DNA from: Lachnospiraceae bacterium
GTDB lineage: Bacteria > Bacillota > Clostridia > Lachnospirales > Lachnospiraceae
Assembly (NCBI GenBank): GCA_024695205.1
Contig: JAILIQ010000294.1
Location: 1 to 37,830, forward strand
Direction of reading: 5' to 3'
Length of the DNA stretch: 37,830 nt
In this document: positions 184 to 12,655 of the stretch, piece by piece
How positions within the stretch are numbered: position 1 is the stretch's first letter
How the letters are laid out: the number at the start of each line of letters is the position of its first letter
The notes under the pieces: generated by a model
The model's input: only the letters and a program-made list of their open reading frames with translations
Told to the model about the DNA's origin: nothing
Database searches by the model: none
Program-made: the position numbers and the translations under genes

Positions 184-1944
184 CCGACCGGAGGATCGTC
201 AGGCGATAACGTGCAGGAAATCCGGAACACTATGAACGCTCCTGCTTCGGGCACGATGGAGGCCAGGCTCCTTGAGGACATCCGGAAAATGAATCTGGAG
301 ACCTATGAGGAAGCATCCATCGACCTGACGCAAAGGAAGTATTTCCCGGAAAAAAGAAATGTGGATGCAGTCTGGGATAAGACCGTCTTTTATGTGCTGG
401 AGGGTTACGAGGAAGCGACGGGTTATTCCAGAAAGCATGTCTGTGCCCTGGAGAAAAAGCAGCTGAAAAATGCGGCTAACGGGAACCTGATCCAATACGA
501 GATCTATCTGAACCCCGAAACCGGCATCGCAAACAAGATCGTGTCCATCGAGTACCTGAGCGACGGCCTTGAGGTCACGGAGTATTACTATACCAACCAG
601 AAGCAGATCAGTTTTATCTTCCGCTACCGGACGGATAATTATCTCTCCACCTTCGCAACAGCTGACAAGAAGGGAGAGCGATATCTGTTCGACAACGATT
701 TCATGGTCACCTGGCGGATCGTTTCGGACAGCCTGACGGCCAATTATGTGGTGGGGGAAAAGGAAGCCGGGGAGATCAAAAATTTCCCGGCGGATACGAT
801 CCATATCTATAATACCATGAGCCGGGAGGAGCAGAAGGCTTTTGATGAAAAAGAGCTGGAAATGCTGAATGCCGCATATATTACGTATGATCTGGTGCTT
901 TCAAGTAAAGGGATAGCAAGTATTCAGGGATATGTGTACGACGAAACGGGAACAGCGCTTGCGGACGTGACGGTGCAGCTGTATTCAACCGATTTCGCTT
1001 ATGTGCTGTATACACTGACGACGGACAGTACGGGACGCTATTTCATCTATGTGCCGAATGAGGCCTATGAGTATAACATCCGTGTAAATCTATCCGGTTA
1101 TACGGACTGCGAGATATATGGGATCCGGATCTACAGTGAGCAGCTCAGTGTGTATCAGGAGAGCATCTATCTGTTCCCGTCTTCGTACAGCACGGAGATC
1201 CGGACCGATCTTTTGCTGGGGGATGCGTTCCATTATGCCGAAAACGGGGACGGCATGATGGTGTTGTCGGGTGCGAAAGTCAATGTCCGCCGTGGAATCG
1301 GCAACAGATTCGGAACGCTTGTATTCGAGGCATGGTCTGATGAAACGGGGATGGCTTACCTGAGCCTGCTGCCGGGCATCTATACCATTGAGGTGATCCT
1401 AACCGGCTATGAAACGATGTATTACACAATTACGGTCAATCCTCTGAATCCGGTAGACCGTTATGAGTTTTACGCGGCGCCGAAACTTTCCGACAATGAA
1501 ATGGCGGTGGTGCTGACCTGGGACGTGTATCCCTACGATCTGGATTCCCATCTGTTTACGACAAAGCCTGGGAATGAGAGCGAGCATATCTGGTATGGCC
1601 ATATGTCCGACTCCATGAACAGCTGGCTGGACGTGGACGATACCTTTTCCTACGGGCCGGAGACCATCACGCTCCATAACTTCAGTGCGGAAAATTATTA
1701 TAAATACTGCGTGGTGGATTATACGGATTGCTTCATTGGGAACATCGGGAGCTATGATATGTCCAATTCCGGTGCGAGCGTGCATGTATATGATAAAGAC
1801 GGTCTCGCTGCTTCTTACTATGTGCCGGCGAACTGCTCCGGCGTGATCTGGGAGGTATTCGAGATCCGGAACGGGGTTGTCACACCGATCCAGAGATATT
1901 ACAACAATGTCGCGGATAAGACCTGGTGGGCCGGCGAGAAATAG
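1..1944 (+). CDS. Surface/secreted protein fragment (5' end outside window): TEN-rich linker, two carboxypeptidase-regulatory-like (CNA-B-like) repeats, C-terminal DUF2135/YfaP-like segment
   Basis: Frame of ORF 211..1944 is open to base 1 (QRDTENTENTENTENTENTGNAENTEST...). 'IQGYVYDETGTALADVTVQLYSTD...TDSTGRYFIYVP' and 'SGAKVNVRRG...DETGMAYLSLLPGIYTIEV' are CarboxypepD_reg-like; 'VVLTWDVYPYDLDSHLF' resembles DUF2135. Confidence 0.75.
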   Translation, partial: QRDTENTENTENTENTENTGNAENTESTDNTESTENTENTENAENTENIESTGNTENTENTPTGGSSGDNVQEIRNTMNAPASGTMEARLLEDIRKMNLETYEEASIDLTQRKYFPEKRNVDAVWDKTVFYVLEGYEEATGYSRKHVCALEKKQLKNAANGNLIQYEIYLNPETGIANKIVSIEYLSDGLEVTEYYYTNQKQISFIFRYRTDNYLSTFATADKKGERYLFDNDFMVTWRIVSDSLTANYVVGEKEAGEIKNFPADTIHIYNTMSREEQKAFDEKELEMLNAAYITYDLVLSSKGIASIQGYVYDETGTALADVTVQLYSTDFAYVLYTLTTDSTGRYFIYVPNEAYEYNIRVNLSGYTDCEIYGIRIYSEQLSVYQESIYLFPSSYSTEIRTDLLLGDAFHYAENGDGMMVLSGAKVNVRRGIGNRFGTLVFEAWSDETGMAYLSLLPGIYTIEVILTGYETMYYTITVNPLNPVDRYEFYAAPKLSDNEMAVVLTWDVYPYDLDSHLFTTKPGNESEHIWYGHMSDSMNSWLDVDDTFSYGPETITLHNFSAENYYKYCVVDYTDCFIGNIGSYDMSNSGASVHVYDKDGLAASYYVPANCSGVIWEVFEIRNGVVTPIQRYYNNVADKTWWAGEK

Positions 1945-1977
1945 ATGAGTCACTTGGGACGGTTCTTTCTGACTCAT
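1945..1977. repeat. REP-like dispersed repeat, copy 1 (full length, 33 bp)
   Basis: ATGAGTCActtgggacggttctttcTGACTCAT, 8-bp perfect terminal inverted repeat, directly abutting the TAG at 1942-1944. Confidence 0.85.
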
Positions 1978-1995
1978 TTTCTTCCTGATTTACTG

Positions 1996-2580
1996 TTATA
2001 GGATTATCTGCAGATATTGAACAGGAATATGGTCTGTCAGCCACACGCCGCTGGCCGATCGATAAAACTTATATCCATCCCTGTACATTTCTTCAGCTTT
2101 CACGCCGTACAGGACCAGTTTGCCATGCCGTCTCCCAACGCTCTTTGCCTGCTCAGCGTTCTCAGATAAATGCACGAACTGCCGGCTCTGTTTCAGCAGC
2201 CCCTCCCTCTCAATAGATTCACTGAACCTGGTTGCTGATCCGTGATACAGTACGGAAGGCGGTTGCATTTCTTCATAACCCAGATCGACATCTACTGAAT
2301 GTCCGTGAACAGCCCTTACTTTTTTTCCGTCATCGCTGAACTCATATCTTTGCTTGTCTTTTCCATATGCAAGTTCCTGTAATAGTTCTACGGTAAGCGG
2401 ATATCTGGGCTGCACTTTTTCTATAAGCTGCGCCACATCAGTCCAGCCGTGTTCATCCAGGACAACTCCCGCCTCCTCCGGATGATGCCTGAGCAGCATC
2501 GATACGTACTTGCCCATCCTTTTATTCGTATCCATCTTTTTGACCATCACTTTCTCCGTCGCTTCATCATCCGGATCCAC
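1996..2580 (-). CDS. kptA: RNA 2'-phosphotransferase (Tpt1/KptA family); start possibly downstream at MDTNKRMGKY
   Basis: 'GKYVSMLLRHHPEEAGVVLDEHGWTDVAQLI', 'YHGSATRFSESIEREGL', 'HLSENAEQAKSVGRRHGKLVLYGV' are KptA signatures. Confidence 0.93.
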   Translation of the reverse strand: MDPDDEATEKVMVKKMDTNKRMGKYVSMLLRHHPEEAGVVLDEHGWTDVAQLIEKVQPRYPLTVELLQELAYGKDKQRYEFSDDGKKVRAVHGHSVDVDLGYEEMQPPSVLYHGSATRFSESIEREGLLKQSRQFVHLSENAEQAKSVGRRHGKLVLYGVKAEEMYRDGYKFYRSASGVWLTDHIPVQYLQIIL

Positions 2581-2649
2581 AACCTGATTTATTCTTTCTA
2601 TACTGGCTTAGCATCCGATCTTCTATTTCTTTCAGCAAGTTTGCTCATC

Positions 2650-3687
2650 TCAGTCCCTGTTCCGTCTTTCTCCTACCTGTCGATTTGAGTGATGCAGGTA
2701 TTCTTTCCATAATTTGTACAGCTTGTTTTCCGATTCTTTTATCGCTGCTTTGGTCTCTGGATCCTTTTTGCTGAGAAATAGCGTCGCCATCTCCCGAAAA
2801 ATGAGTTCTTCACTATAAACAACCTCTCCGCTCTCTGATAGTTTCAGGAATACCATAAATATCTTCCGGCAGGCTTCGCATGCATCAAAAAGACGTACCG
2901 TACCCATAAATTCATAGTCTTCGGCCACCATTACTGCAAGGCGGCGGGGCAGATTATTAAACAGGATCCTTCTTGTTTTTCCGCTCATGACCTTCATTGC
3001 ACATTCAAGATCAGCGTTATCCACATCTCTAAGTATCCGCTGAACAGCCTGGTCATCAACCTGTGATAAGACCTCCTCGAGCATTTTTACGACATAGTAG
3101 TATTCATCACCCGTATTAACACATGTTTCAATATCCTCGGAACAAAGGGCGTCCACCTTACTCATATCAAGGTCCGTTATCGCCTGAAGCTCGTCTGATT
3201 CATTCCGTTCTTCCTGTCTTCGTTCATATTCATCTGTAAGTTCCTCAGGTAATATGTAGAGTAACGTCTCCTCGATCAGTCTGGGATTCTTTCCCGCCTG
3301 CATCGCCATGATGCCATACATCATGAGCAGATACTGTAATGCCGCGTAATCACTGAGTGGTGCAGAAAAATACCGGCAGTAAAGTGATTCTTCCAGATCT
3401 TCCTGGAAAGTCCCGTCACAAACAAGCAGTACCATGATCTTCAAATACTTTACACCGGGAAATCCTTCCATTTCGTATGCGGCACTTTCCAACGCAAGAA
3501 GCCCCTCTCGCCTGGCCATATTTGACAGCCACACAAGTTTTTCAACTGTATCAATTAACATATTCTTATTTGCAGTTATCTCCGTTGCTGTCGGTGAAAG
3601 TTCATTTTCAGATATTATGTTTTGCTCAAGGTTTCTGATCTCGTCGATTCTTTTTCTTATTTCAAAAAAATAAATGTCCTTCATCAT
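2650..3687 (-). CDS. Soluble MotA-cytoplasmic-domain/FliG-C-terminal-domain chimera, function unknown (start chosen at MMKDIYFFEI; the longer ORF to 3738 begins inside a repeat)
   Basis: 'LVWLSNMARREGLLALES' and 'GIMAMQAGKNPRLIEETLLYILPEE' match MotA cytoplasmic regions; 'VDDQAVQRILRDVDNADLECAMKVMSGKTRRILFNNLPRRLAVMVAEDYEFMGTVRLFDACEACRKIFMVFLKLSESGEVV' matches FliG C-terminal domain; no transmembrane segment. Confidence 0.8.
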   Translation of the reverse strand: MMKDIYFFEIRKRIDEIRNLEQNIISENELSPTATEITANKNMLIDTVEKLVWLSNMARREGLLALESAAYEMEGFPGVKYLKIMVLLVCDGTFQEDLEESLYCRYFSAPLSDYAALQYLLMMYGIMAMQAGKNPRLIEETLLYILPEELTDEYERRQEERNESDELQAITDLDMSKVDALCSEDIETCVNTGDEYYYVVKMLEEVLSQVDDQAVQRILRDVDNADLECAMKVMSGKTRRILFNNLPRRLAVMVAEDYEFMGTVRLFDACEACRKIFMVFLKLSESGEVVYSEELIFREMATLFLSKKDPETKAAIKESENKLYKLWKEYLHHSNRQVGERRNRD

Positions 3688-4348
3688 GTATGGTATCCTC
3701 CCTATGTGAGTCAATTGGCGCGGTTCTTTCTGACTCATTTACTTCCTTTACGTAGGTAAGTTTAAAGTTCTCACCTTCATATACACGTATAGGGTTTCCA
3801 CGCACGATCTGCGCATGTTTACTCCAGGCGTCATTTTTCTGCCTGTCCTTATTTGTCACATTTATTTCTCTTAAAACAGCAGACAGCTTTCTCATGGCAT
3901 CCTGCCTGTTCGCGAATTGTGAGCGTTCCCTTGTTGACGATACTGTGATCCCTGTAGGCAGATGAATGATCCTTATTCCGGTTTCAACTTTATTTACATT
4001 CTGCCCTCCGGGACCGCCACTATGAAATTTCTCAACTCTGACCGTATCTGCTGCCAGTGTTTCACTGATCTCTTCTGTTTCCGGTATAATGCTTACGTCC
4101 ACAAACCAGTTCTTCCGCTTATGTCCCGGTCTGTATTTACTCTTGCAGATCCATTGCATGGTTCCGTCAAGTTCCGGGAGATCTCGCTCTGACGAGAAGA
4201 TGATCGATGAAAAAGCTCCTTCTACCTCTCCTTTCACCGCGGTTATCATCTCTATATCCGGAAATTCCTTTTCCAGGGCTTTATATATGCCGCCGACAGC
4301 AGCCCTGCATTCCACAGGGCCCATGCCGGAGCTTATCTGTAATATCAT
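3662..4348 (-). CDS. prfH: Peptide chain release factor-like protein PrfH
   Basis: 'EKFHSGGPGGQNVNKVETGIRIIHLPTGITV' GGQ motif; starts directly after the rtcB stop. Confidence 0.93.
   Translation of the reverse strand: MILQISSGMGPVECRAAVGGIYKALEKEFPDIEMITAVKGEVEGAFSSIIFSSERDLPELDGTMQWICKSKYRPGHKRKNWFVDVSIIPETEEISETLAADTVRVEKFHSGGPGGQNVNKVETGIRIIHLPTGITVSSTRERSQFANRQDAMRKLSAVLREINVTNKDRQKNDAWSKHAQIVRGNPIRVYEGENFKLTYVKEVNESERTAPIDSHREDTIHDEGHLFF
3706..3738. repeat. REP-like dispersed repeat, copy 2 (full length), inside the 3' end of prfH
   Basis: GTGAGTCAattggcgcggttctttcTGACTCAT; same 33-bp length and layout as copy 1. Confidence 0.85.
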
Positions 4349-5482
4349 TCAGGCATTTCCTCCCTTGTAGTTATAGACAGGCTTAAGTATCTTACTGATA
4401 GATACAGTGTCCTCTACAGCCTCTTTAATGTAGTCCGCTCCCCTGTACGCAAAAGGAGCTTCGTCCAGTGTATCACTGCTTATGCAGGTGGAATAGATCC
4501 CTTTCATCGATGCCTTAAATTCCGATACGGTATGTGTGTTGTTCGTTGCTTCTCTGGATGCGATCCTCCCTGCGCCATGGGGTGCTGAATAATTCCACTC
4601 TTCATTACTCTTGCCCTTTCCCAGGATCACGCCATCCCTCATATTGATGGGTATGATCACATCCTCATTTTCCCTGGCTGAGATAGATCCTTTTCTGAGC
4701 ACCGGCTTTTCCCCGGAAAGATCAACATAGTTGTGTACGCAGGAGATCACTTCCTTTTCCTTCCATTTCATCCCTTTTATGATCTCGGAAGCGATCACCC
4801 TGCGGTTTAGGTCAGCATACTCCTGCACGACAGCCAGATCGTGGAGATAATCATCCTTTAATTCTTCCGTAAGATAGGTCATCTCATACGGAACATTGTT
4901 TATCCCCTGCTTCTCAAGGGCCTTCTGTCCAGCAGACAGGTAATATTCAACTACTTCCTTTCCGAGATGCCTGCTCCCGGTATGGATGATCATATAGACT
5001 TCTTTGTTTTCCTCCTGATCAAGCTCAATAAAATGGTTGCCACCGCCAAGTGTACCTATGCTTAAAAGAGCTTTGTCGTGACGGATGTGCTTATAACAGC
5101 GCAGTCTCTCCAGATCAAGATCAGCACCCCTGTGCACATTGCTTCTTATCTTAAATCCCGCCGGCACGTTATCCCTGATCACTGCGTCCAGCTTCTGAAA
5201 ATCATTGCGGATCTTTCCAAGCTTTACCGCAAGCATTCCACAACCAATATCGACACCCACAAGTGATGGGAGGATGCGCTCTCCCACTGTCATGGTAAGG
5301 CCGATCGGACCAACCTTTCCCGGATGAACATCGGGCATGACCCTTATCACTGATCCCTCCGAAGCGATGTTGTCACAGATCATCTGCACCTGTGCAAGGG
5401 CATACTGATCCACGTTGGCGCCTTCGAGCTCCTGGTCGCACATAATATGTGCTTCTGTATAAATTCCTTTTACTGATATCAA
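4349..5482 (-). CDS. rtcB: RNA ligase RtcB family (RtcB2-type, PrfH-associated); TTG start proposed at 5482, longer ORF reaches 5542
   Basis: 'MPDVHPGKVGPIGLTM', 'VGVDIGCGMLAVKL', 'GTLGGGNHFIEL', 'IIHTGSRHLGKEV', 'HNYVDL', 'APHGAGRIASR'. GGGGGT precedes the TTG. Confidence 0.93.
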   Translation of the reverse strand: MISVKGIYTEAHIMCDQELEGANVDQYALAQVQMICDNIASEGSVIRVMPDVHPGKVGPIGLTMTVGERILPSLVGVDIGCGMLAVKLGKIRNDFQKLDAVIRDNVPAGFKIRSNVHRGADLDLERLRCYKHIRHDKALLSIGTLGGGNHFIELDQEENKEVYMIIHTGSRHLGKEVVEYYLSAGQKALEKQGINNVPYEMTYLTEELKDDYLHDLAVVQEYADLNRRVIASEIIKGMKWKEKEVISCVHNYVDLSGEKPVLRKGSISARENEDVIIPINMRDGVILGKGKSNEEWNYSAPHGAGRIASREATNNTHTVSEFKASMKGIYSTCISSDTLDEAPFAYRGADYIKEAVEDTVSISKILKPVYNYKGGNA

Positions 5483-5627
5483 AATAAAACCCCCGTCGAA
5501 GTGTCCTTTGCATTTTGCGGTTATATTCGCTGAAACAGTCAAACCATCCGGATGCTTTCTGCCAATCCCTAAGCCAGGTCAGGGAATCTATGTTTGAACT
5601 CTTTGTGAGTGTCTCCTGTAATATAGA

Positions 5628-6275
5628 TCATAGAATGGCTATCTCCCAGGTCGTATATATGGTTTCCGTATAAGTTTCATTCGACGGAGATAGCTCATCC
5701 GAGTTATCGTAGGGCTCAAATTCCTGTTCACTACAGAGCTCCAGACTATCAATCTCACCAACATATACTGAGTTCAGTTCCGGTGCATTCTTATCTGCTG
5801 ATATCAGACCGACAACTTTATGATCTATTGCCCGCGCCATTACCTCGGCCTGTCTCTTCGCATCTTTTAAGGCTTCCGTCAGAAGTTCCTGTCTGATCGC
5901 ATCCTCGTTTGACAGTTTATAATCAACACAGAAGCCAACCTGTGCATTACTGCTATTGGTAATGGATCTTATGTTATTGATCATCTTCATATTGAACTCA
6001 GACTCAATCTCAAGAATACGGTTTGCCCTGTAATAGTCCCTATTGCCATCGTTATGAAAATCTCTAGAAAGGTCAATGGAGTCACTTGACAAAGATATAT
6101 TCGAAATATCTATACCGCTCTTTTTCAAAACCCCCAGAAATTCTTCACATTCACGCATTACCTTTTGAGATGCTTCCTTTGCAGTGTTTTCCTTCGCATG
6201 AAAATCAAGCTTGATCCTCATAAGATCATAATCAACCGTTTTTGACGCGCTTCCTCTTACCTCAAGTTTTCCCAT
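5628..6275 (-). CDS. SIMPL (DUF541) domain protein
   Basis: 'MGKLEVRGSASKTVDYDLMRIKLDFHAKENTAKEA', 'ALKDAKRQAEVMARAIDHKVVGLISA'. Confidence 0.8.
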   Translation of the reverse strand: MGKLEVRGSASKTVDYDLMRIKLDFHAKENTAKEASQKVMRECEEFLGVLKKSGIDISNISLSSDSIDLSRDFHNDGNRDYYRANRILEIESEFNMKMINNIRSITNSSNAQVGFCVDYKLSNEDAIRQELLTEALKDAKRQAEVMARAIDHKVVGLISADKNAPELNSVYVGEIDSLELCSEQEFEPYDNSDELSPSNETYTETIYTTWEIAIL

Positions 6276-6385
6276 GTCAAACCTCCTTAATGATTCTCTT
6301 ATTGCTGTTCTATGATCATATTCTATATGACGGTCTTTTCAATGTCACTTAACTCGTAGTTGAAAAAGAGCCGCTGACGTCCCAT

Positions 6386-7258
6386 TCAATCGTATCCAAA
6401 TACTGTAAGGAGCGCCAGATTGATCTGCGGGTTTTCAAATCCGCCCAGGTCTTCCCTGTTCCCTACCAGATCCGCGATAAGGTGCTTGATATCCGAACCT
6501 CTTACAAATAGTTCGTCATATCTGAAATCATGCGGAAGTTCTTCATGCTGTCCGATCTCACATGCGAACTTATATGGTATCAGGCAACGGCCATAGGCGC
6601 ACTGAGTATGATCCACATCGTCACGTTTAATTTCATCATCAACTATCTCATTCATAAAATCCCTGTATTCAGAGTATTTCTGATGATAGAAATGCTCATA
6701 GTACTCGTCTTTCAGTTTGGGAAGATTTTCAAAGCGTTTAATCGTTGCTTCAGCATCCTTCACAATTTCCATATTGAGATCATCACGTCTGCTGAAACGC
6801 TCTATCTTATCTTTTTGGCACCGAATAAGATCTTCAGCTTTATAAAACAGGAAGAAATGGTTTTCTATTGTCCGTTTAAAATCGAAACTCGTAAATTCAT
6901 AAACGTCTTTTTTGCTAAACCACCTGCCAAGATTGCCATCATAATCCGACAGGTCCACAAAATATCTGGTAAATGAGGCATCTCCAACAATAATGTCCCG
7001 CGCAAACCTCCACTGATTATGAACGCGGAATATAACATTTTCCATGTGCATGTTCTCAATAGATATAGGTATATCATGTGGAAGCGCAATAAGATCAGGA
7101 ATCTCATCATACGTACTGCATTCCTTCAGTTTACTTTCGATTTCCTCTTCTGACATTATCTTGTGCAGATTCTTTCCTGTTACTAAAGCGTAATCTGAAT
7201 CACTGCCCATCCCTCTGAGCGAGGGCTGTGTCAGTATATAGTATTTATCTTCATTCAT
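6386..7258 (-). CDS. Uncharacterised 290-aa protein, 3 bp downstream of the metallophosphoesterase gene
   Basis: Long ORF, tight spacing with the upstream gene; no domain recognised by eye. Confidence 0.75.
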   Translation of the reverse strand: MNEDKYYILTQPSLRGMGSDSDYALVTGKNLHKIMSEEEIESKLKECSTYDEIPDLIALPHDIPISIENMHMENVIFRVHNQWRFARDIIVGDASFTRYFVDLSDYDGNLGRWFSKKDVYEFTSFDFKRTIENHFFLFYKAEDLIRCQKDKIERFSRRDDLNMEIVKDAEATIKRFENLPKLKDEYYEHFYHQKYSEYRDFMNEIVDDEIKRDDVDHTQCAYGRCLIPYKFACEIGQHEELPHDFRYDELFVRGSDIKHLIADLVGNREDLGGFENPQINLALLTVFGYD

Positions 7259-7261
7259 AAG

Positions 7262-7798
7262 TCAGGCCCTCCGAAATGCCTTATTATTCCGGACCAGTTC
7301 CTTAAAGGATACCGGCATATAGTTATTGATGCAGGCCGCTGCGTTCAAAGCCCGCTCTCTCGTCCTCATAAAGTCATAGACCTCATCCCGGTTTCCGTGG
7401 ATATGTCCGTAAATATGCCAGGAGCCATGCCTTGACTTATACCATTCCGCCAGCGGATAATGGCACAGGCAGATCTCCTCTCCCTGATCTGCGATCACCT
7501 GCAGCTCATGGATCGACGCAAACAGGCTCTTTGCGTTTTCATTTTCCGTAACTGCCCGGTCATGGTTTCCCAGGATCAGATGTTTTTTCCCCATAAGCTG
7601 GTTCAGATACCATTCCGGATCCTTCCCGCTCCGATAGCAGAAATCCCCAATGATATATACGTCATCCTCCGGCTGTACCCTGCCATTCCAAAGTGAGATC
7701 ATGATCCTGTCCATTTCCTCAACGTCCGAAAATGGCCTGTGATCAAAGTTGATCACGTTTTTATGCCCGAAATGCAGGTCGGCAATATATAAATTCAT
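7262..7798 (-). CDS. Calcineurin-like metallophosphoesterase
   Basis: 'IADLHFGHKNVINF', 'IIGDFCYRS', 'LILGNHDRAV', 'CHYPLAEW', 'IYGHIHGN'. Confidence 0.93.
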   Translation of the reverse strand: MNLYIADLHFGHKNVINFDHRPFSDVEEMDRIMISLWNGRVQPEDDVYIIGDFCYRSGKDPEWYLNQLMGKKHLILGNHDRAVTENENAKSLFASIHELQVIADQGEEICLCHYPLAEWYKSRHGSWHIYGHIHGNRDEVYDFMRTRERALNAAACINNYMPVSFKELVRNNKAFRRA

Positions 7799-7833
7799 CT
7801 CCGCTCCTATCTGTTGTTTCCTTTTCTATCTAT

Positions 7834-7861
7834 ATTGTATCATATTTTTTCAACTTGTAAA
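7834..7861 (-). promoter_or_regulatory. Candidate promoter for the metallophosphoesterase gene
   Basis: Minus strand TTTACA-16 bp-TACAAT about 40 bp upstream of the start codon. Confidence 0.45.
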
Positions 7862-7970
7862 CCCAATTCTTCTTTCCTCTGAAATATCTCTCCTTCCCCG
7901 ATCAGGATTTTCGGGAAGGGTATCTTTCCATTTTCAGGTTCAGTTGATATAATCCATTATATACCGAAAG

Positions 7971-8011
7971 GCGTATCTGCCCGGTACCCTTTGCCTTCTG
8001 AACAGATACGC
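7971..8011. promoter_or_regulatory. 9-bp perfect inverted repeat upstream of the MATE gene
   Basis: GCGTATCTG (7971-7979) / CAGATACGC (8003-8011), 23-nt spacer. Confidence 0.6.
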
Positions 8012-8061
8012 AGCTGTCCTGAATTGTTATCAAAAGGTTTCCTTTGTTAATGTAAGATAAA

Positions 8062-9423
8062 ATGGAAAGAGAAAAGACAAGCCGCGGTCAGGTTGATCTT
8101 CTGAACGGTCCGATCATGAAATCGCTGATATGGTTTGCAGTCCCGATCTTTATTTCCATGCTTTTCCAGCAGCTTTATAACGCTGCGGATACGGCAATAG
8201 TCGGGAACATCCTGGGGGAAAAGTCGCTTGCGGCCATAGGTGCGGTTTCCGCTGTATTTGAACTGTTCCTGCATCTTGCCACAGGGCTTTGCAGCGGTTT
8301 CGGCATTGTCATCGCAAGAGCCTACGGCTCAAAAGATGAGGATAAGCTTAAAAGATCAGTAGCCGGCGCATTGATGATCGGCATCGGTACAGCCCTGCTT
8401 ATCAGTCTGTTAAGCATCGTCTTCCTGAAGCCTCTTCTTCAACTGATCAATACGCCGGAGGATATTATCGGGGAAGCGCTCTCCTATATCAGGATCGTCT
8501 CCCTGTTCCTGTTCGTCACCTTTACCTACAACCTGGTGTCAGGGGCCCTGCGGGCAATAGGAAACTCTGTCCTCCCTCTTATATTCCTGATCTTTTCCTC
8601 CGTATTAAATGTCATACTGGATTATATCTTTATCGCTTTTTGGGGCGCGGGCGTTCAGGGTGCTGCCGTCGCGACCGTCATATCCCAGGCTGTCTCCGCG
8701 GTATTATGCATCATCTACCTGTTCAGAAAGGTGCCGTTACTGATCCCGGAACCGAAACATTTAAAGATCGATGTCTCGCTGATCAGGGAATTAGCAGGCC
8801 AGGGCTTTGCGGCGGCTCTGATGAGTTCATTGGTGAGCATAAGCTCCATTATCCTTCAGTCCGGGATAAACGGCCTCGGAACGGAGATCATAGCAGCGCA
8901 CATCTCCGGGAGGAAGATATTCTTCCTCTCAGCCATGCCGTTTATCGCGATGCCGATAGGAATTTCCGTGTTCATCTCGCAGAACCGGGGTGCCGGTAAC
9001 GGGCAGAGGATATTAAAGGCCATGAAGGATGCGTATCTGTTCTTTGCGGCGATAGCGGCCGTCATGTCCCTGATCCTGTGGACGTCGGCCCCCGCGTTGA
9101 TCAGACTGATCTCCGGCTCTGATAACCCTTTGATCATATCAAACGGATCGAGGCTTCTTTATGTCTTAGGCCCGTTCCTCTTTATCCTCGGCATCATCAA
9201 TACCACCAGGCATTCGCTTCAGGGCATAGGCTACAAGCTCATCCCCGTCATATCAAGCCTGATCGAGCTCGCCGGGAAGGTTCTTTTCGTGATCTTTCTG
9301 ATCCCGCGCTTCGGATACAGCGCCGTCATATGGTGTGAACCCTCTATATGGGTGTTCATGGCCATTCAGCTTCTTTACGCGTGGTATACAAATGACTATA
9401 TCGCCGGCCTCAGAAAAAACTGA
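8062..9423 (+). CDS. MATE family efflux transporter
   Basis: 'GPIMKSLIWFAVPIFISMLFQQLYNAADTAIVGNILGEKSLAAIG', 12-TM-like hydrophobic pattern. Confidence 0.95.
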   Translation: MEREKTSRGQVDLLNGPIMKSLIWFAVPIFISMLFQQLYNAADTAIVGNILGEKSLAAIGAVSAVFELFLHLATGLCSGFGIVIARAYGSKDEDKLKRSVAGALMIGIGTALLISLLSIVFLKPLLQLINTPEDIIGEALSYIRIVSLFLFVTFTYNLVSGALRAIGNSVLPLIFLIFSSVLNVILDYIFIAFWGAGVQGAAVATVISQAVSAVLCIIYLFRKVPLLIPEPKHLKIDVSLIRELAGQGFAAALMSSLVSISSIILQSGINGLGTEIIAAHISGRKIFFLSAMPFIAMPIGISVFISQNRGAGNGQRILKAMKDAYLFFAAIAAVMSLILWTSAPALIRLISGSDNPLIISNGSRLLYVLGPFLFILGIINTTRHSLQGIGYKLIPVISSLIELAGKVLFVIFLIPRFGYSAVIWCEPSIWVFMAIQLLYAWYTNDYIAGLRKN

Positions 9424-9496
9424 TGACCCGCAAGCCTTTCATTCCATGCCCTGTACTCTGTAAGCAGGCTTAATACGGACATTCTTCCTTATTTGT

Positions 9497-9577
9497 TTAT
9501 TTCTTTTCATATCCCGTCATGATCGTAATAAAAAAACAAATGACAGTAGCCCATGCCCAGAATTTATGGTTCTTCAT
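9497..9577 (-). CDS. 26-aa small membrane peptide MKNHKFWAWATVICFFITIMTGYEKK (absent from supplied ORF track)
   Basis: Strong Shine-Dalgarno (aaggagggatagcaATG), single hydrophobic helix, 46 bp downstream of the P-type ATPase stop. Confidence 0.65.
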   Translation of the reverse strand: MKNHKFWAWATVICFFITIMTGYEKK

Positions 9578-9623
9578 TGCTATCCCTCCTTGGTTATATA
9601 CGAAATCACATCAGATCCATATT

Positions 9624-11705
9624 CTATCCCTTCGGTATAAGAGAAGTCATGCTCTTAAGCCCCAGTGCGACCGTGGATCCGTTATGCAGCATCGCAGAGG
9701 TCGCAGGCGGCATAACACCGGCAATGCCCAGAGCGATCAGAGCCGTGTTGAAGCCCACTATGGTTCTGTAATTGAACCGGATGCGCTTCATTAACAGCGT
9801 GCTCAGCTTTCTTAATACGACAATGCTCTCAAGATCCTCGGAGCTGATCGTTATATCCGCTATCTGCCTTGCGATCTCCGCTCCCTCGCTGATCGCGATC
9901 CCAGCATCTGATGCCGACAGAGCCGGCGAATCATTTATCCCGTCACCGACCATGATCACATGGCGTCCTTCCGCCCTGGCCTTTTCTATGTATCCTGCCT
10001 TATCCTCGGGAAGCACCTCGGAATAGTATTCATCGATCCCGGCCGATCTTGCGATGGCCGCTGCGGTGCGCTCACTGTCGCCCGTCATCATCACGACATG
10101 CTGAAAACCCTGTTCCTTAAGCCTCGCTACGACTGCTGCCGATTCTTTCCTCATCGGATCTTCTATCAGGATGCACGCGCAAAGCTTTCCTTCCTTAGCG
10201 AAATAGAGGTGGGAATATTCGTCGGGAAGCCTGTCGAACAATTCCTGTTTTTCAGGCGGAACGACAGCGCCCTCATCCTCAAACACGAAATGATAGCTCC
10301 CGATCACGGCCTTTTCTCCGTTTATATGCGTAGCGATCCCGTGTGCCACGATGTATTCTGCCTTCGTATGCAGTTCATCATGCAATAACCCTTTTTCATG
10401 CGCGGCATCCACAACCGCGCGTGCTACGGAATGGGGGAAGTGTTCTTCGAGACACGCAGCCTGCCTTAACAGCTCATCTCCCGATTCATCGCAGAAGGAA
10501 ACTACCTCTTTCACCGTCGGACAGGCCTTGGTCAGCGTACCTGTCTTATCAAAAACAATCGTATCCGCATCGGCCACAGCCTCTAAGAACTTCCCTCCCT
10601 TGACGGTTATGCCGTACTCAGTCGCTTCCCGGATCGCAGACAGGACCGATAAAGGCATGGCCATCTTCAGCGCGCAGGAATAATCAACCATCAGCACGGA
10701 TACGGCTTTCGTTGTATTCCGGCTTATCAGCCAGGTTATGCCGGAAGCCGCGAGCGTATATGGAACAAGCCTGTCCGCAAGTCTCTCTGCCTTACTCTCA
10801 AGGGATGACTTGAGCTTCTCTGATTCCTCGATCATCCTGACGATCTTGTCAAAGCGTCCGCAGCCCTCTGTCTGGGTTACCCTGATGGTAAGCTCTCCTT
10901 CTTCCAAAACGGTTCCGGCAAAAACAGCCGCACCCATGCTCTTTCTCACAGCAGCCGGTTCCCCGGTCATGGACGCCTGATTGACCATAGCCTCCCCGTC
11001 CGAAACCTCTCCGTCAAACGGGATCATATTTCCCATCCTGACGATCACGCTGTCGCCGCAGGCAATCTTCGATGAGTCGGTCAGAACCTCCCCTTTGTCC
11101 GTCAGCATCCAAACCTTGTTGACATTTAAGGACATCCTTCTGGCAAGGTCGTCTACGGAACGCTTATGGGTCCACTCTTCAAGGTTATCGCCGATATTTA
11201 ACAGAAACATGACCGATGAAGCGGTTTTACGGTCCCCGGTAAGCATCGCCGCGGTAATGGCTATAGCGTCTAAAAGCTCCACCTGCAGTCTGCGGTTACG
11301 GAACGTCTTCAAGCCCCTGTATATATATTTTATTGTTTTGATGCTTTCCCATATCCAGCGTATCGAAACCGGAAGGAGGATCCGCTTGCCGTAATGAAAG
11401 ATGATGGAGGTTACGATCCTGTCATAATATTTCGCGGACAGTTCCCGGCCGGAGCCCTCAAGCACTCTTTCGGGTACATCGGTTCCCTCAAATGAAAAAT
11501 CCTTAAGGATCTTTATGATGTCCTGTCTGGCACCCTCATATACAATGGCAGCGTCCGCCGTGCGCTCGTATACCCGCACCTCTTTTACCGCGCAAAAGCC
11601 CTTCAGATAATAATCCAGCGTATCCGCTTCCCGGAAGGTCATCCGTCTCATGCGAAGATGAACCCTGATCCTTTTTTTTGATTCATGCTTTATTATAAAT
11701 TTCAT
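9624..11705 (-). CDS. Heavy-metal (P1B) translocating P-type ATPase with degenerate N-terminal HMA-like domain
   Basis: 'DKTGTLT', 'MVGDGINDSPAL', 'MTGEP', TM motif 'DYSCALKMAMP'; N-terminus lacks CxxC. Confidence 0.93.
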   Translation of the reverse strand: MKFIIKHESKKRIRVHLRMRRMTFREADTLDYYLKGFCAVKEVRVYERTADAAIVYEGARQDIIKILKDFSFEGTDVPERVLEGSGRELSAKYYDRIVTSIIFHYGKRILLPVSIRWIWESIKTIKYIYRGLKTFRNRRLQVELLDAIAITAAMLTGDRKTASSVMFLLNIGDNLEEWTHKRSVDDLARRMSLNVNKVWMLTDKGEVLTDSSKIACGDSVIVRMGNMIPFDGEVSDGEAMVNQASMTGEPAAVRKSMGAAVFAGTVLEEGELTIRVTQTEGCGRFDKIVRMIEESEKLKSSLESKAERLADRLVPYTLAASGITWLISRNTTKAVSVLMVDYSCALKMAMPLSVLSAIREATEYGITVKGGKFLEAVADADTIVFDKTGTLTKACPTVKEVVSFCDESGDELLRQAACLEEHFPHSVARAVVDAAHEKGLLHDELHTKAEYIVAHGIATHINGEKAVIGSYHFVFEDEGAVVPPEKQELFDRLPDEYSHLYFAKEGKLCACILIEDPMRKESAAVVARLKEQGFQHVVMMTGDSERTAAAIARSAGIDEYYSEVLPEDKAGYIEKARAEGRHVIMVGDGINDSPALSASDAGIAISEGAEIARQIADITISSEDLESIVVLRKLSTLLMKRIRFNYRTIVGFNTALIALGIAGVMPPATSAMLHNGSTVALGLKSMTSLIPKG

Positions 11706-11721
11706 ACAGGCCTCTCAGATC

Positions 11722-12012
11722 CTATTCTTCTTCCTTTTCCGGGACTTCCTCTTCTGTCTCCTCTTCCTTCGCAGCTCTTTCTTCATTGATAGCCCTGGCG
11801 TCCTCGTAAATATCGGTACAGTTCTCCTGAAGCACTGTCACCTGATCGAGAATGGAATCCTTGACCCGCAGAACGCCTGCCGTACACTTCGTATACACCT
11901 TCTTCGCGTCCTTGGAAGACAACAGCTTGATCCCTTCAAGGCCAAACAGAGTACCCAGTGCAAATATCCCTACTTTTTTCCAGCTCATGTCATTCTCCTT
12001 TCCAAAAAACAT
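11722..12012 (-). CDS. DUF6110-like small membrane-anchored protein
   Basis: 'MSWKKVGIFALGTLFGLEGIKLLSSKDAKKVYTKCTAGVLRVKD'; acidic C-terminal tail; family name from memory. Confidence 0.65.
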   Translation of the reverse strand: MFFGKENDMSWKKVGIFALGTLFGLEGIKLLSSKDAKKVYTKCTAGVLRVKDSILDQVTVLQENCTDIYEDARAINEERAAKEEETEEEVPEKEEE

Positions 12013-12013
12013 A

Positions 12014-12391
12014 TTATTCTATAACAAGATGCGCCTTAAAAAAAGCATCGAGAAGCTCATATGTCTCATCGCTGATCACATGTTCTATGCTGCACGCTTC
12101 CTTTGACGCGGTCTTCTCGCTTACGCCGATCCCCTTAAGGACCTTTGTCAGAAGAACATGCTTTTTGTATACCTTCTCAGCGACCGCCCTGCCGGCCTCG
12201 GTGAAATAAATATGTCCCTTGTCGCTGAAATAGATCATTTCCTTCTCGCGCAGCCTCTTCATGGCATTGCACACGCTCGGTTTCGTAACGCCGAGCTCTC
12301 TTGCTATGTCTATCGATCTTGCATAACCCTTCTTCTTATGAAGCATCAGAATGCTTTCAAGATAATCCTCGGCCGAATTATTCTTCTCCAT
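12014..12391 (-). CDS. DtxR/MntR-family metal-dependent transcriptional regulator
   Basis: 'SAEDYLESILMLHKKKGYARSIDIARELGVTKPSVCNAMKRLREKEMI'. Confidence 0.93.
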   Translation of the reverse strand: MEKNNSAEDYLESILMLHKKKGYARSIDIARELGVTKPSVCNAMKRLREKEMIYFSDKGHIYFTEAGRAVAEKVYKKHVLLTKVLKGIGVSEKTASKEACSIEHVISDETYELLDAFFKAHLVIE

Positions 12392-12404
12392 CTTTTATCC
12401 TTTT

Positions 12405-12593
12405 TTATTTACCGCATGTATAATCCGACTGATTTAAATCCTTCTTGGGACATGACGCGGCATACGGGCATCCGATACAATGCCTGCCCTTCTTTTTTTC
12501 TTTATGGATGTAGACACAGGCACCTCCGATCATGGCAAGCAAAATGATGATGATCACAATATTGGCTATCACAGATTCCATATCCACCTCCAT
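12405..12593 (-). CDS. FeoB-associated Cys-rich membrane protein
   Basis: One TM helix followed by 'CIGCPYAASCPKK...DYTCGK', next to feoB. Confidence 0.85.
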   Translation of the reverse strand: MEVDMESVIANIVIIIILLAMIGGACVYIHKEKKKGRHCIGCPYAASCPKKDLNQSDYTCGK

Positions 12594-12655
12594 AGCTTCT
12601 TCCCTGCAGACTGTCCCAGCTCCGCAGGGAAGAAGCTTTTCATAAGCCGAAACGA

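Follow-up and report, generated by a model that had tools for sequence, protein, structure and literature searches.

The stator protein MotA carries four transmembrane helices that form an ion channel together with MotB. Genetic pairing in Escherichia coli links MotA R90 to FliG D289 and MotA E98 to FliG R281 (PMC4030992). EpsE, the clutch of Bacillus subtilis, is encoded in the eps operon rather than in a flagellar one and is thought to bind FliG and to disturb the MotA–FliG contact (PMC3000366), while YcgR binds both MotA and FliG (PMC10140304). As for RNA repair, the pair PrfH and RtcB2 rescues E. coli ribosomes after cleavage by colicin E3 and repairs them (PMC9223846), and E. coli cells without rtcA or rtcB reach three times as far in soft agar (PMC5175333).

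Here, we analyse a soluble chimera of MotA and FliG parts that is encoded beside prfH in a Lachnospiraceae genome, within a window of 37,830 nucleotides (the whole stretch of DNA under study). Like FliG (TIGR00207/PF01706), the chimera possesses the homologous C-terminal helical domain and keeps the charges of the torque face; unlike FliG, it has neither FliG_N nor FliG_M, and hence no route to FliF or FliM, and its whole-protein score is 68.1 bits against a cut-off of 226.7. With the MotA/MotP/PomA stators it shares the cytoplasmic loop and the C-terminal tail, in the same order and with equivalents of R90 and E98, but it lacks all four membrane helices and its whole-protein score is 37 against a cut-off of 394. 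As a cytoplasmic protein of a non-flagellar operon with a proposed action at the MotA–FliG contact, it would be comparable to EpsE; however, EpsE is a glycosyltransferase, whereas the chimera is put together from pieces of the motor and carries no enzyme domain (no glycosyltransferase match in Pfam). Its proposed binding to both MotA and FliG would likewise recall the YcgR brake, but YcgR is a c-di-GMP effector and no PilZ domain was matched in the chimera (Pfam). Finally, the chimera gene shares a probable operon with the RtcB2–PrfH ribosome-repair module in the window genome, in contrast to the other prfH loci that we inspected.

We found no published report of soluble MotA–FliG fusions in the literature consulted, the 2016 survey of RNA repair by Burroughs and Aravind lying outside that scope; the preliminary description of this DNA, too, had been aware of no described role for such a fusion.

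A membrane-free protein made of MotA and FliG parts

The chimera gene (2650..3687, minus strand) encodes 345 aa, a soluble MotA-type cytoplasmic domain followed by a FliG C-terminal domain. A longer frame starting at an in-frame ATG at 3738 is possible, but we favour the ATG at 3687 because a GGGAGG ribosome-binding site lies 9 nt upstream of it. The MotA-type part is matched by the NCBIfam models MotP (2.3e-9) and MotA (3.1e-8) as two collinear pieces. The first (aa 40–97; 3397..3570, minus strand), which contains ARREGLLALE, corresponds to the cytoplasmic loop after TM2, and the second (aa 117–149; 3241..3339, minus strand), GIMAMQAGKNPRLIEETL, to the tail after TM4 (NCBIfam PomA 4.3e-6, profile positions 213–245), both also being recovered by alignment with flagellar MotA. 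In this alignment TM1–TM2 and the TM3–TM4 hairpin are missing and the loop continues into the tail via a short bridge. The hydropathy of the chimera reaches a maximum of 1.2 (Kyte–Doolittle, 19-residue windows), versus 2.4–3.0 for flagellar MotA, as expected for the membrane-free polypeptide proposed in the preliminary description. The FliG C-terminal helical (torque) domain follows at aa 205–290 (2818..3075, minus strand; Pfam FliG_C, E=1e-17). The domain had been called near full; the match holds, but it covers only the C-terminal helical subdomain, and the FliG N-terminal and middle domains are absent. Neither Pfam nor NCBIfam revealed a nuclease or an RNA-binding domain in the chimera.

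Comparison with PDB sequences retrieved both FliG (2.6e-15) and MotA (1.1e-5), and structure prediction agrees with the profile searches, so that both similarities originally noticed from the letters have been recovered, at levels well beyond chance. The AlphaFold model, built on an alignment of 19 family members, has a mean pLDDT of 86.8, although the two halves are placed relative to each other without a confident fixed arrangement (pTM 0.58). A Foldseek search of this model against the PDB returned FliG 1qc7_B (TMt 0.91, rmsd 1.0 over 86 columns) and also MotA chains, including both the FliG and the MotA partners of the solved MotAB–FliG complex 8ucs. The MotA–FliG chimera is real. The same architecture occurs in independent genomes, which rules out an assembly artefact, and a broken stator gene is excluded by the in-frame junction of loop and tail and by the conservation of the family at about 20–43% identity.

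Residues of the rotor–stator contact were mapped by hand onto the alignments, using what we take to be the E. coli numbering of the FliG and MotA sites. R59 and E67 of the chimera, both within ARREGLLALE, are the equivalents of MotA R90 and E98, and K232, R249, E256, D257 and R265 stand at the positions of FliG K264, R281, D288, D289 and R297. Of 19 family members, 17 carry a basic residue at the R90 position and 16 an acidic one at the E98 position; the FliG-side positions are mostly kept in those members that have the FliG half, though their charges vary. The conservation of these charges may be structural.

The rtcB–prfH–kptA neighbourhood and its repeats

The minus-strand gene order is rtcB, prfH, chimera and kptA, and the location between prfH and kptA already given in the preliminary description is borne out by the Pfam and NCBIfam matches of the neighbours. 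The RNA ligase gene rtcB (4349..5542, minus strand; Pfam RtcB 1.5e-55) lies immediately upstream of prfH, encoding peptide chain release factor H (3662..4348, minus strand; NCBIfam TIGR03072, 176.5 bits, over the cut-off), and the next gene downstream of the chimera is kptA/tpt1, encoding RNA 2'-phosphotransferase (1996..2580, minus strand; Pfam PTS_2-RNA 7e-39), the true start of which is probably at 2534–2546. These genes likely form an operon, since rtcB and prfH abut and the 3' end of prfH shares 26 nt with the chimera gene. The window shows no recognisable flagellar gene, as previously stated, though the genome encodes FlhA and FliG elsewhere.

Further along the window, a calcineurin-like phosphoesterase gene is present upstream of rtcB (7262–7798). 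A 37% relative of it (L119, 7804–8298, genome G112) lies about 2 kb from prfH, and this phosphoesterase is possibly a recurrent accessory of the prfH–rtcB system. At the other end, positions 1–216 hold an array of ~9-nt repeats that encode repeats of the Thr-Glu-Asn type, just before an ORF at 211–1944.

Two direct repeats of 41 nt bracket the chimera and kptA. Copy 1 (1946..1986), with a TGAGTCA...TGACTCA palindrome, is located just after kptA, and copy 2 (3707..3747) in the 3' end of prfH, where the prfH profile match stops at 3764, just before the repeat, and a C-terminal extension then reads through it. The copies are 90% identical and are the only two in the genome, so that a high-copy element is ruled out; looser sites with the core GACAAAAAGAACCGTCC and different stems occur elsewhere and may belong to a related small element. 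The flanking repeats are compatible with the arrival of the chimera and kptA as one cassette. It is possible, if somewhat doubtful, that the chimera acts on the motor while its placement with rtcB and prfH is a neutral accident, the chimera having come in, perhaps with kptA, as a cassette between the repeats, with no regulatory tie to RNA damage. The exact bracketing of the two genes by the repeats, the absence of both from 23 other species of the genus and the unrelated contexts of other chimeras all favour such an accident, as do the other inspected prfH loci (see below). However, the chimera gene overlaps prfH closely and has a strong ribosome-binding site, features reminiscent of a settled operon, and the reading frames are intact. 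The placement beside prfH, between short repeats, is known from one assembly, which is fragmented (371 contigs, 86% complete, 6.8% contamination).

Distribution and variants of the chimera family

We screened 397 Lachnospiraceae genomes with a profile built on the MotA-like half and detected chimera-type proteins in 15 of them (E 1e-18 to 1e-63, whole model matched). Flagellar MotA was set apart from the chimeras by matches of ~1e-15 or weaker covering the loop only. The weakest carrier, G143 (5e-14, model 15–114), was counted since its ORFs leave no room for membrane helices and since a second search gave a whole-model match. When all fetched loci were searched again, the same split between chimeras and MotA was obtained and three more members were added (L121, L123 and L124). 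Elsewhere in the class sample (291 genomes) we did not detect the family, and neither the chimera nor kptA was present in the 23 congeneric species. The chimera is also absent from the phage and viral collections searched, and plasmids gave only FliG-type matches to the C-terminal part, so that these collections lend no support to a prophage or plasmid origin. A scan of genome contigs with the single protein gave no matches, and one with the alignment mostly true MotA.

A tree built on the shared columns gathers 18 of 21 chimeras in a single supported group (95/93) that is distinct from flagellar MotA; outside this group fall L036, L124 and the long-branched L037. This topology makes one origin of the chimera family likely, with these three outside the main group. 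The family is sporadic and fast-evolving in Lachnospiraceae. The window protein pairs with L113, to which its MotA half is also nearest (41–45% identity). The L113 locus (1419–12598) carries on one strand a kptA gene (46% identity to that of the window), a LigT 2H phosphoesterase, a macrodomain gene and a probable toxin–antitoxin pair of the HigBA type, and suggests an association of the chimera with kptA. Most neighbour functions at the carrier loci were assigned by inspection of the sequence, Pfam being applied to selected proteins.

Most family members have both halves, and three (L038, L039 and L113) consist of the MotA half only. One of the latter, L039 (3044–3517, minus strand, contig C323; 157 aa), is a second family member in the window genome, in an unrelated context. 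Two chimera copies are found 3 kb apart in L110. In L037 (7015–7980, plus strand), both halves are preceded by an N-terminal helix-turn-helix of the Cro/C1 type (Pfam HTH_3 1.2e-13), and a gene resembling the FlhB C-terminus (5675–5953) lies about 1 kb upstream; this member could possibly be a transcription factor reading the state of the motor. L118 (5988–8484) contains two tandem MotA-type ORFs beside genes resembling NMN adenylyltransferase and ADP-ribosylglycohydrolase, and pncA/pncB-like genes adjoin L124. Together with kptA in the window, the neighbours of L118 and L124 may point to an NAD/ADP-ribose theme.

The N-terminal motif of FliM binds CheY-P. When 2,222 ORFs were scored with a position-weight matrix of FliM/FliY N-terminal peptides, the highest-ranking pair apart from FliM and FliY themselves was a 74-aa protein near the L034 chimera and the chimera variant L111. 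In L111 (6314–6943, minus strand), a charged helix ending in VLNQDEIMELL, a peptide of the FliM/FliY CheY-binding type, replaces FliG_C; a model of this variant made without an alignment has a pLDDT of 55, too low to be of use. The small Ala/Pro-rich protein (L034, 5826–6050, minus strand) ends in VLSQAEIDALFAAMT, with the FliM N-peptide VLSQAEIDALF, and its gene, situated at a distance of about 1.1 kb from the chimera, follows a PfkB-like kinase gene in divergent orientation.

The accessory surroundings of some carriers also bring to mind a defence function, in which the chimera would lock the motor against phages that need a rotating flagellum and would travel in accessory islands together with conflict genes. 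Near L033 there are an integrase and Abi-like ORFs, and near L114 and L118 TraG/VirD4-like genes (all named by eye), and PrfH–RtcB is itself a counter-toxin system (PMC9223846). We nevertheless regard a defence role as improbable: PADLOC matched the chimera to 0 families, the phage, plasmid and viral collections searched lack it, and its contexts are too varied for a defence island.

Flagella, RNA repair and a candidate motor clutch

The profile search placed prfH over its curated cut-off in 19 of the 397 genomes. Among 18 prfH loci inspected, a chimera adjoins prfH in the window only; in the remaining 17 (1.5 kb flanks), rtcB is always present and a chimera never. Two of the 15 carriers also possess prfH, versus 0.7 expected (p=0.16), and in the second of them, G112, prfH and the chimera are 22 kb apart. 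At the other carrier loci neither prfH nor rtcB was found, and kptA was encountered once, 5 kb from the L113 chimera. By contrast with 211 of the 397 genomes overall, all 15 carriers encode FlhA, a flagellar export protein (hypergeometric p=6e-5, uncorrected for shared ancestry; p=1.1e-4, likewise uncorrected for phylogeny, when the window genome is excluded). The genomes of L121, L123 and L124 encode it as well, which brings the count to 18 of 18 tested carriers. This co-occurrence could partly stem from duplication in flagellated lineages and from shared ancestry. The carrier loci are not themselves flagellar operons, as a search with proteins from three flagellar regions matched only chimeras, response-regulator genes and the FlhB-C-like gene beside L037.

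The preliminary description had inferred the reuse of a torque-pair module, whether as sensor, scaffold or switch, within a ribosome and RNA-repair response, and had proposed a survey of homologues for co-occurrence with prfH, rtcB and kptA. The linkage to rtcB and prfH is genuine in one genome, but it did not recur at the loci inspected, and RNA repair is not supported as a role for the family, given 1 of 18 prfH loci and 18 of 18 flagellated carriers. It had also named, as a result that would speak against this reuse, homologues lying mainly in flagellar operons without such linkage; the loci turned out to be non-flagellar, while recurrent linkage is indeed absent. A flagella-independent function in RNA repair, with ribosomes, PrfH or RtcB as targets, seems improbable to us. 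The operon position between prfH and kptA and the kptA, LigT, macrodomain and HigBA-type genes around the nearest relative would fit it, but the carriers are all flagellated, variants with FliM-type peptides exist and the chimera matches no domain for RNA binding or cleavage. The RNA-repair setting is particular to the window genome, that of a gut bacterium.

The relatives of the chimera are scattered and confined to flagellated species, so that a motor clutch is a likelier role for it than one in RNA repair. With moderate confidence, we favour a cytoplasmic protein that would attach to the flagellar motor and act there as a clutch or brake, a reading drawn from the co-occurrence with FlhA, the kept contact charges, the FliM-type peptides, the fold match to 8ucs and the precedents of EpsE, YcgR and rtc-dependent motility. 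Since it lacks the membrane helices, FliG_N and FliG_M, the chimera cannot be a stator or rotor subunit. The family would copy one or both faces of the rotor–stator contact, namely the FliG-binding loop of MotA and the MotA-binding torque domain of FliG. The MotA half would then bind FliG on the rotor and the FliG half the MotA stators, and the chimera would compete with the drive contact or bridge it, so that rotation is slowed or disengaged. A two-sided clamp cannot be the general mode, as L038, L039 and L113 have no FliG half and the FliG-side charges vary.

A self-assembling scaffold unrelated to the motor, held together by contacts between the MotA half of each copy and the FliG half of its neighbour, is suggested by the presence of both partners of a known contact on one chain and by the loosely predicted arrangement of the halves. 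We consider it very improbable: such assembly is impossible for the three single-half members and for the member with the FliM-type peptide, and it leaves the strict co-occurrence with flagella without explanation.

Returning to the clutch, the carrier loci are non-flagellar and mutually different, a pattern suggesting that control over production of the protein lies with the local operon, whose expression would set the timing of the motor cut. In the window, the rtcB–prfH–kptA operon would suppress swimming during the repair of cleaved rRNA or tRNA. That RNA repair and motility are connected has a precedent, because loss of rtcA or rtcB increases the spread of E. coli in soft agar, and this effect, together with ribosome repair by PrfH and RtcB2, makes a damage-triggered swimming stop plausible. 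Such a coupling possibly exists, with the motor as the target, but we hold it only tentatively, from a single genome. Equally tentative is the wider picture of plug-in clutches assembled from the MotA loop, the FliG torque domain, the CheY-binding peptide of FliM and sometimes a DNA-binding domain, placed in varied operons and here hard-wiring RNA repair to a swimming stop.

The soluble stator–rotor hybrid proteins are a new family, whose mode of action would, by analogy, be a variant of the known clutches EpsE and YcgR. If the motor reading is true, torque-transmitting surfaces have been recycled into free-standing regulators, unlike the c-di-GMP and glycosyltransferase clutches, and the chimera is a natural soluble probe of the rotor–stator contact. 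In the window genome, the repair of ribosomes and tRNA would be tied directly to motor output, which would offer a testable mechanism for a link such as that seen on loss of RNA-repair genes in E. coli (PMC5175333).
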